From positions 1 to 64,000 of the forward strand of contig JADYXW010000047.1 of NCBI GenBank assembly GCA_020853975.1: 64,000 nt of DNA, written 5' to 3'. The DNA comes from Phycisphaerales bacterium. Its GTDB lineage: Bacteria > Planctomycetota > Phycisphaerae > Phycisphaerales > UBA1924. Position numbers and translations under genes: made by a program. The notes under the pieces were generated by a model that was given only the letters and a program-made list of their open reading frames with translations, ran no database searches and was not told the origin of the DNA. Positions 40,075 through 43,148 of the stretch are shown in pieces. How positions within the stretch are numbered: position 1 is the first letter of the stretch; each line of letters opens with the position of its first letter.

Positions 40075-41514
40075 TCAGTCTTCTTCGAGCGTCTTCTTGC
40101 GACGGAGCACGTGGTGATAGTGCTGCGCGAATCGATGGGCCTCGTCGCGGATGGCCTGCACGAGCCTGAGGCCCGCGTTTGAGCGCGGCAGGCGGATGGG
40201 CGCGCTCTTCCGCTGGATGTAGATGAGCTCTTCCTTCTTGGCGAGGCTGATGACCATGGGGGGTTTGGTCGTGAGGAGGTCGAAGACCTCCAGTGCGGCG
40301 TGGAGCTGGCCCAGGCCGCCGTCGATCACGATGACGTCCGGGTACATCTCCTGCCCGTCGCCGGCCTCGCGATAGCGACGGCTGACGACCTCGCGGATGC
40401 TGGCGTAGTCGTCGTTGCCGCCCTCGACGGACTTGACCTTGAATCGGCGGTACTCGCTCTTGCAGGGGCGGCCGTCGACGAAGGAGACCTTGCTGCCCAC
40501 GGTCTCGCCACCCTTGAGGTGGGCGATGTCGATGCACTCGATGCAGCGGACGGGTTCGGGCAGGCCGAGGGTCTTCTGCAGGCTGCGGAGCGACGAGGCC
40601 GGGTCGATGTGGACCTGCTCGGTCTCGGGCTGCCACTGCTGCGAGCGCGAGCCCCGCTCGTCGAGGCGCTCGATGGCGCGGATCTGGTCGCGGATGGCGG
40701 CGGCCAGCTCGAAGCGTTGCTCTCCGGACGCTCGCTCCATCTCCTCGCGCAGCTCGCGGAGCATGACGCTGCGCTTGCTCTCCAGAAACCGGGTGAAGCG
40801 GGTGATGTCCTCGCGGTAGGCGTCACGGCTGATCTTGTCGGCGCAGGGCGCGGTGCACTGGTTGATGGCGTAGAGCAGGCACGGGCGGAAGCGCGCGTTC
40901 CTGGGGTCGTTGTTCAGGATGTCGAGCGAGCAGGTGCGGAACCGGAAGACCCGCTGCAGGATCGCCACGGCCTCGCGCAGCGCTCCGGCGTTGGTGAAGG
41001 GGCCGTAGACCTTCGCCCCGCGGAACTCCTCCGTCGCGGGGGCCCGCGTGACGACCACGCGCGGGAAGTCCTCGCGGGTGGTGACCGCCAAGTAGGGGAA
41101 GGTCTTGTCGTCGGTCAGCCTTACGTTGAACCGGGGCTTGATGTCCTTGATCAGCCGGTTCTCGGCGAGCAGGGCCTCCCACTCGCCCTCGCACTCCATG
41201 GTCTCAAAGTCGTGCACGAGGTCGAGCATCGCCTGCTTCTGGAAGCCCAGGTCGGCTGATGGGACGAAGTAGGACGAGACGCGGTCGGGCAGCGCGAGCG
41301 CCTTGCCCACGTAGAGCACCACGCCCTTGTGGTCCTTCATGAGGTAGACGCCCGGGGCGCGTGGGAGCGACCGGGCCCGGCGGAGCAGACGCTGCAGCCG
41401 GTCCTCGCGAGACTCGGTGCCCCACACCGGCAATGGCCCGCGCGGCGCGGCGGCGTTGCCCGGGTGGTCGTCGGGGCCGGGAGTGTGGGGCGTGTGCTCT
41501 TCCGGCGTGTGCAT
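40075..41514 (-). CDS. uvrC: UvrC-like nucleotide-excision nuclease lacking the HhH domain
   Basis: A 479-residue protein. The GIY-YIG nuclease domain starts at LPRAPGVYLMKDHKGVVLYVGKA (about 50-72); RTCSLDILNNDPRNARFRPCLLYAINQCTAPC is the conserved Cys-rich UvrC segment; a UVR motif (LREEMERASGEQRFELAAAIRD) follows. The RNase H-like endonuclease has CIDIAHLKG, VIDGGLGQL and RDEAHRFA, the three catalytic positions. Standard UvrC is about 610 residues with a C-terminal helix-hairpin-helix pair; here the protein stops just after the endonuclease domain. A ~30-residue disordered N-terminus precedes the fold. Confidence 0.9.
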   Translation of the reverse strand: MHTPEEHTPHTPGPDDHPGNAAAPRGPLPVWGTESREDRLQRLLRRARSLPRAPGVYLMKDHKGVVLYVGKALALPDRVSSYFVPSADLGFQKQAMLDLVHDFETMECEGEWEALLAENRLIKDIKPRFNVRLTDDKTFPYLAVTTREDFPRVVVTRAPATEEFRGAKVYGPFTNAGALREAVAILQRVFRFRTCSLDILNNDPRNARFRPCLLYAINQCTAPCADKISRDAYREDITRFTRFLESKRSVMLRELREEMERASGEQRFELAAAIRDQIRAIERLDERGSRSQQWQPETEQVHIDPASSLRSLQKTLGLPEPVRCIECIDIAHLKGGETVGSKVSFVDGRPCKSEYRRFKVKSVEGGNDDYASIREVVSRRYREAGDGQEMYPDVIVIDGGLGQLHAALEVFDLLTTKPPMVISLAKKEELIYIQRKSAPIRLPRSNAGLRLVQAIRDEAHRFAQHYHHVLRRKKTLEED

Positions 41515-41557: not shown

Positions 41558-42079
41558 TCAGGCCTTGGGCGGCTCCGCCTTGGACTTGCCGCCCTGGCCC
41601 GCGTCGGACTTGGCGAGTTTTCCGAGCGCCGGGGGCAGTTCGATCCCCGCCTGGGAGGCGAGTTCGTGCGGCCTGGGGAGCGAGCCGATCATGCCGGACA
41701 GGAAGTCCGCCGTCGCGTGGCGGCCCGAACCGCCCGTGCCCCGGTCCCACACCGTGATCTTGTCGATCTTCAGGCCCTGCACCGCCTTCACCTGCTGCTC
41801 GACGGGCTTGGAGAGGCCAGCGCAACCAAAGCCCATCGCGAAGGCGATGATACTCTGGAACGAGAGCGCCTTGAACGCTCCCGTCGGGTCCGGGTGCGTT
41901 GTGCCGGGCACGTGCGGCGCGTCAACGTTGGCGTTTGACAGGCCCGTGCTGCCTACCCGCATGAGTACCAATCGGACTACGAACACGGCGGTGCCGAAGA
42001 TCGCCGGCACTCCGAACGAGACCGCATTTCCCCGCAACAGCAGATCGAGCCTGGCCGCACCCCCCGGCGCCAGGCCCAC
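41558..42079 (-). CDS. Chimeric ORF: membrane-protein N-terminus joined to a flotillin C-terminus
   Basis: A 173-residue frame whose halves look like two different proteins. Residues about 22-86 (FGVPAIFGTAVFVVRLVLMR, FKALSFQSIIAFAMGFGCAG) match the two-helix N-terminus of the DUF1449/NfeD-like membrane proteins often found just upstream of flotillin genes. Residues about 87-173 (LKIDKITVWDRG, TADFLSGMIGSLPRPHELA, AGIELPPALGKLA) match the C-terminal end of flotillin (SPFH) proteins. The middle, including the whole SPFH domain, is missing. It reads as the in-frame fusion left by a deletion inside a two-gene operon. The start (GTG 42079 or TTG 42037) is uncertain; whether it is expressed is unknown. 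Confidence 0.55.
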   Translation of the reverse strand: MGLAPGGAARLDLLLRGNAVSFGVPAIFGTAVFVVRLVLMRVGSTGLSNANVDAPHVPGTTHPDPTGAFKALSFQSIIAFAMGFGCAGLSKPVEQQVKAVQGLKIDKITVWDRGTGGSGRHATADFLSGMIGSLPRPHELASQAGIELPPALGKLAKSDAGQGGKSKAEPPKA

Positions 42080-42269
42080 TTGGGCGGGCCCACGACCCGC
42101 ACCGGGCCCAACCAGGAGTCACAGGTCCGGGTCACATGGACCTGGGTCTTGTCGGACCCTGCTTTCGGGGCTGGGTGAGGTTCGGTTCTGAATTCGCGGG
42201 GGACGGGTTCAATCTCGGTTGCTCGGTGCCTGCGCGCGGCCGATAGATCAGTCCGCCGCAAACGACTCC

Positions 42270-42275
42270 TATCAT
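42270..42275 (+). promoter_or_regulatory. Candidate -10 element, methyltransferase
   Basis: TATCAT lies 21 bases before the ATG at 42297, with a weak GAGAGAG ribosome site between. The rest of the 42080-42296 gap shows no gene. Confidence 0.4.
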
Positions 42276-42296
42276 CCGTTTCCCGAGAGAGTGCGC

Positions 42297-43148
42297 ATGC
42301 CCCAGAGCCAAGCCATCCAACCCGAGTCTTCCCCGTACGTGCTGGGCACAGGCCAGGACGAGTCCGTGCGTCTGGGTCTGCAGCACCGGCTGTGGTCCGC
42401 CGCGGCGCACGCGTTGTGGGAGCGGGCGGGCGTCAAGCCCGGGCAGACGGTGCTGGACCTGGGCTGCGGCCCGGGGCACGCGTCGCTGGACCTCTCGCAG
42501 ATCGTGGGACCCGCGGGGCGGGTCGTGGCGGTGGACGAGTCGGCGTCGTTCCTCAAGCAGCTGCACGATCAGGCCGTCGCACGCAAGGCGCACCACATCG
42601 AGCGCGTGTTGGGCGACGTGCAGGACATCGGAACGGTCCTTTCCGAAGAGGCGGGGCAGATCGATCTCGCGTACGCGCGCTGGGTGTTCTGCTTCCTGTC
42701 GCGGCCCGAGGACGTGGTGAAGGGGCTGGCACGGCTCATCAAGCCGGGCGGCAAGGTCGCGGTGCAGGATTACTTCAACTACGAGCGGAGCCTGACGCTC
42801 GCGCCGCGTTGCGAGGCCTTCAGCCGCGTGATCAGCGCTGTGGGCGCCTCGTGGCGTTCGCGTGGCGGGGACACGGACGTGATGGGCAAGCTCCCGGGCA
42901 TGTTCCTGAAGCACGGGTTCGAGGTGACGTCGATCGAGGTGGTGCAGAGGCTCGCACGCCCGGACAGCACGATGTGGAGCTGGCCCAACTCGTTCTGGCA
43001 GAACTACGTTCCGAGGCTGGTTGAGAACGGGTTCCTGACCCGCGATGACGAGGCGGCGTTCCACGCCGCGTGGATCCGGGCGGCGAACGACCCCGGCTCG
43101 TTCGTGCTCCTGCCCCCCGTCTTTGAGCTGATCGCAACCCGGCGATAG
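42297..43148 (+). CDS. SAM-dependent methyltransferase (class I)
   Basis: A 283-residue enzyme. Motif I is VLDLGCGPGHASLDL (about 51-65), followed by GRVVAVDESASFLKQL (acidic ribose-binding residue), DLAYARWVFCFLSRPEDVVKGLARLIKPGGKVAVQDY, the typical post-I to motif III path. The C-terminal part is helical and specific (SVTSIEVVQRLARP type). Resembles UbiE/arsenite-type small-molecule methyltransferases; the substrate is not evident. The ATG at 42297 is the closest to the fold; upstream frame is non-coding. Confidence 0.8.
   Translation: MPQSQAIQPESSPYVLGTGQDESVRLGLQHRLWSAAAHALWERAGVKPGQTVLDLGCGPGHASLDLSQIVGPAGRVVAVDESASFLKQLHDQAVARKAHHIERVLGDVQDIGTVLSEEAGQIDLAYARWVFCFLSRPEDVVKGLARLIKPGGKVAVQDYFNYERSLTLAPRCEAFSRVISAVGASWRSRGGDTDVMGKLPGMFLKHGFEVTSIEVVQRLARPDSTMWSWPNSFWQNYVPRLVENGFLTRDDEAAFHAAWIRAANDPGSFVLLPPVFELIATRR

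Follow-up and report, generated by a model that had tools for sequence, protein, structure and literature searches.

The stretch of ~520 bases at positions 41558–42079 on the minus strand of the window (the whole stretch of 64,000 nucleotides from a Phycisphaerales bacterium that was analysed) is very probably what remains, in pseudogene-like form, of an NfeD2-flotillin (YuaF/YuaG-type) operon once located directly upstream of uvrC. The remnant is most likely non-functional, and it is an ordinary gene fossil, not a new protein. Its open frame joins the front of an NfeD2-like membrane protein to the tail of a flotillin, and comparison with intact relatives supports the loss of the intervening sequence by deletion.

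Composition of the fused open frame

The fused frame, which runs for 186 codons from stop to stop, contains neither an internal stop nor a frameshift. When it was compared with the genome G006, from the same genus, positions 42049–41810 matched residues 2–79 of the NfeD-like protein (51% identity, E=4.5e-16) and positions 41809–41606 matched residues 449–518 of the flotillin (74% identity, E=2.5e-26). The two matches abut at 41810/41809, with no gap and no change of frame. This confirms the preliminary description of the frame as a membrane-protein front joined in frame to a flotillin tail, with no SPFH/Band 7 domain. The 5' part holds, by inspection, the first transmembrane segment and the start of the second, and alignment with 48 relatives identified it as the N-terminal transmembrane region of the NfeD2 family. 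The 3' part corresponds to the last ~75 residues of flotillin and includes the C-terminal segment KIDKITVWD ... HELAxQAGIELP. The coordinates of these parts, of the neighbouring genes and of the intact genes in G006 are collected in Table 1.

Table 1. Features of the remnant, its surroundings in the window and the intact genes of G006 (locus L111)
Feature	Position	Strand	Remarks
Fused open frame (remnant as a whole)	41558..42079	(-)	GTG at 42079 to TGA at 41558, 173 codons
5' part: residues 2–79 of an NfeD2/YuaF-like membrane protein	41810..42049	(-)	homology to G006
3' part: flotillin from residue 449 to the C-terminus (524 in G006)	41561..41809	(-)	homology to G006
Deletion junction (CTC TCC AAG)	41807..41815	(-)	abutting matches, join at about 41809/41810
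AGG in place of the native start codon (ATG/GTG), which is lost	42050..42052	(-)	alignment with relatives
Vestigial Shine-Dalgarno-like GGGGGG	42060..42065	(-)	at the position of the relatives' GGAGG/GGGGG
uvrC (excinuclease subunit C), synteny anchor	40075..41514	(-)	43 bases downstream of the remnant stop, same strand
Methyltransferase gene, synteny anchor common to G002	42219..43148	(+)	divergent from the remnant; likely start ATG at 42297
G006 NfeD-like membrane protein	L111:4919-5491		190 residues
G006 flotillin	L111:5587-7161		524 residues; Band_7 E=1e-29, Flot E=1e-12
G006 uvrC	L111:7700		same strand as NfeD2 and flotillin

One or both halves of the frame were matched in 55 other genomes of the order. 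Among these, query residues ~90–165 matched the end of a flotillin frame that was nearly always longer than 500 residues, and in many relatives residues ~7–90 matched the front of a ~200-residue frame located ~2 kb from the flotillin match. The two-part make-up is therefore far beyond chance, given that 55 genomes match the halves and that intact loci carry them as separate genes ~2 kb apart. Searches against Pfam gave no family match up to E=10, and the sole NCBIfam match was weak and irrelevant (E=0.17); one known family spanning the whole protein, the result named beforehand as speaking against a fusion, was seen in neither collection. Matches that seemed to cover the full span, in Akkermansiaceae and others (L054, L076, L081, L086 and L088; query residues ~70–160), were rejected as ordinary full-length flotillins, in which the region preceding the tail aligns loosely across the junction. 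The front had been labelled DUF1449/NfeD-like, and only the second half of this label stood: 8 out of 12 relatives matched the Pfam NfeD model, weakly, which fits an NfeD2/YuaF-like protein, but none of the 12 matched the DUF1449/YqiJ model.

The intact operon and the deletion

In G006 an intact NfeD2-flotillin pair lies directly upstream of uvrC, with all three genes in the same orientation on one strand. With this locus as template, about 1,775 bp are missing from the window in one piece (L111:5156–6930), and more than half of each of the two coding sequences is gone. The lost portion of NfeD2 comprises residues 80–190, including the C-terminal OB-fold NfeD domain (residues 125–189 of the G006 protein). 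Flotillin residues 1–448 are absent from the window's genome, and no other copy of the NfeD2 or flotillin gene was found on any of its contigs. The long coiled coil rich in Glu and Ala is missing from the fused frame as well, since the match starts at residue 449, beyond it; in the alignment to human flotillin structures, the retained segment starts near the last alignable stretch of human flotillin-2 (9l3g). Hence, the name "oligomerisation tail" given to this segment in the preliminary description is wrong: all that is left is the C-terminal segment that followed the deleted long coiled coil, and this should not be called an oligomerisation domain.

A single deletion across two neighbouring genes had been proposed as the simplest explanation, and it gains support from a genome of the same genus, in which the operon is intact and flanks uvrC on the same side. 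The intact pair had been expected between uvrC and the methyltransferase gene; it was found beside uvrC in G006, but there the methyltransferase gene is elsewhere. As the comparison with intact relatives shows, one deletion of ~1.8 kb removed all of the NfeD2 gene behind its front, the spacer between the genes and, from flotillin, both the SPFH domain and the coiled coil, the front and the tail being joined in frame by luck. It may have occurred between short chance matches at Leu codons in the two genes; in G006, a diverged proxy, the deletion ends share few bases, and a common Leu codon (CTC/CTG-like) is the most that can be proposed. The start codon would have been lost before or after this event, with slow drift since then. 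The product would have no flotillin function left, and the remnant would be at most inert leader DNA for uvrC.

Three further observations were made at related loci. Between flotillin and uvrC, G006 carries a short frame (L111:7139–7522) with the motif HVHLLIGF, which we take to resemble a REP-associated (IS200-type) transposase. A GAF-domain gene precedes the NfeD2-flotillin operon in many Phycisphaerales loci (various, among L035–L120). An apparent insertion of ~215 bases after residue 187 of flotillin was seen in an open 715-codon frame at L035:3995–4212 and in G172 (C7:1150–1364); possible explanations are an insert, a gap or a variant domain.

Start codon, drift and distribution in relatives

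The first codon of the NfeD2 gene in most relatives is ATG or GTG, placed behind a purine-rich ribosome site. At the start region G006 reads AGGGGGTGTGCG ATG CTC GAC CTG and the window reads CGGGGGGTGCGGCC AGG CTC GAT CTG. The native start, which lies 27 bases downstream of the GTG listed at 42079, has thus most likely changed from ATG to AGG, as judged from the aligned sequences, while the Shine-Dalgarno-like GGGGGG has been preserved. With this codon lost, translation of the fused frame is probably weak or absent. A search around the remnant for a sigma-70-like promoter gave none, a result that says little in this phylum.

Several substitutions were found in the window sequence. In the motif GFGWAGL, Cys replaces a Trp that all 21 intact operons compared have in common; an Arg occurs within the first transmembrane segment, and Pro takes the place of an aliphatic residue twice. 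Radical unique substitutions amount to 5 out of 155, the highest value of 22 sequences, three others having 4. At the 25 columns with a conservation of at least 90%, the tail shows no departure. Mean identity to the relatives is ordinary for both halves, whose divergence does not exceed that of intact genes. Third-position G+C is 0.94 in the tail and 0.80 in the front half; the lower value of the front would fit an NfeD gene that was dying first and a deletion that came later, although the numbers are small. The open frame and the gene-like tail indicate that the deletion is probably young. A young deletion fits both the open frame and the conserved tail, and continued selection on the tail is also compatible with them. 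The frame would have stayed open because the deletion is recent and because stops arise slowly at a third-position G+C of ~90%.

The distribution of the fusion was analysed with one genome per species. No second fusion was present among the best 80 matches in a scan of 84,980 species genomes, nor was it found in the other six genomes of the genus, in 163 of the family or in 397 of the class. In the closest relative, G002, whose UvrC is 91% identical, uvrC and the divergent methyltransferase gene are kept and no trace of the NfeD2-flotillin pair or of a remnant was found between them. The idea that the frame might be a conserved new small membrane protein is not supported, as no other genome searched has the fusion, the region is lacking in G002 and the native start is gone. 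In G003 the GAF-domain gene that usually precedes the operon stands beside uvrC, about 105 bases apart, and the pair is gone, with no flotillin. A flotillin was matched in 102 of the 163 family genomes and in none of the remaining 61, some of which are incomplete drafts.

A collapsed flotillin was found in G019, a genome of another genus (L113:6625–6951; C61, minus strand), directly behind the same GAF-domain gene. Here flotillin residues 139–193 are joined in frame to residues 480–518 and NfeD2 is wholly gone; the absence of NfeD2 and the different join indicate that this collapse was an independent event. The two partial remnants known, that of the window (G000) and that of G019, both preserve the frame and have the same flotillin tail at their end. 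One more apparent deletion, in L072 (G187 C34; residues 202 to 446 missing), was discarded as a scaffold gap of 100 N. This gap, at L072:4892–4992 (also in L150), replaces the flotillin coiled coil and mimics a domain deletion in searches. The window locus is one stage in a recurrent loss of the NfeD2-flotillin operon in this family.

Alternative explanations and comparison with known systems

An artefact of assembly or binning, in which a mis-join over 1.8 kb would hide an operon that is intact in the organism, is very unlikely. The window's genome is a draft of 110 contigs, and the 100-N gap in place of the flotillin coiled coil in another genome of the family indicates that the region can be hard to assemble. 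However, no piece of the missing 1.8 kb occurs on any other contig, and the few bases shared by the breakpoints, with G006 serving only as proxy, are too little for a k-mer mis-join. A mis-join leaves two point changes unexplained, the lost start and the replaced Trp, and the complete loss in the sister genome G002 makes a real loss plausible.

Even less probable is a functional small membrane protein that carries the flotillin C-terminal segment and whose expression begins at the upstream GTG or at an internal start. The open frame, its gene-like base composition, the conserved residues of the tail and the in-frame GTG 27 bases upstream of the lost start would agree with such a protein, as would the independent in-frame tail of G019. 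Against this, the fusion is conserved in no relative and is absent from the closest one, the native start has been lost, and both the Arg in the first transmembrane segment and the change from Trp to Cys at a family-invariant site are unfavourable. Moreover, no flotillin is left in the genome with which the tail could assemble. A membrane-tethered function of the flotillin tail is therefore unlikely, given the lack of conservation, of a start and of a partner flotillin. It is just as doubtful that the frame, translated from the upstream GTG, is a selected membrane-anchored flotillin C-terminal peptide, in the sense that tail-only derivatives recur on loss of the operon, with G019 as the second case.

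The least probable of these accounts holds that the remnant has been kept in frame as an open translated leader, which would avoid Rho-dependent polarity on uvrC. It draws on the position of the remnant, which shares its strand with uvrC and lies only 43 bases away, and on the fact that both known remnants are in frame, for which the chance expectation is about 1/9. Nevertheless, two cases are too few, there is no uvrC near the G019 remnant within the 13 kb read, the lost start means that the leader is probably not translated, and no such leader exists in G002 or G003.

The pseudogene-like remnant of the operon matters little as a protein. It provides a snapshot of operon loss, the operon being intact in one relative, reduced to an in-frame fusion with a dead start here, and absent without residue from others. 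As its frame is still open, a gene caller would list a hypothetical protein, and it serves as a warning that open frames of this kind will be annotated as hypothetical membrane proteins.

The known counterpart is the NfeD2-SPFH2 (p-flotillin) operon, represented by yuaF-yuaG (floT) of Bacillus subtilis and yqiJ-yqiK of E. coli (PMC2636767). Both fused pieces come from the two genes of this operon and stand in operon order, but the window remnant lacks the SPFH domain, the coiled coil, the NfeD OB-fold domain and the start codon. Like fusion pseudogenes generated by deletion, it is an in-frame join of neighbours that has lost its middle and is not conserved in relatives; unlike them, it is still open in frame. 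It shares with the collapsed flotillin of G019 the family, the operon context with a GAF gene and an in-frame internal deletion that keeps the flotillin C-terminus, and it differs from it in that G019 has no NfeD2, whereas the window keeps the NfeD2 front.
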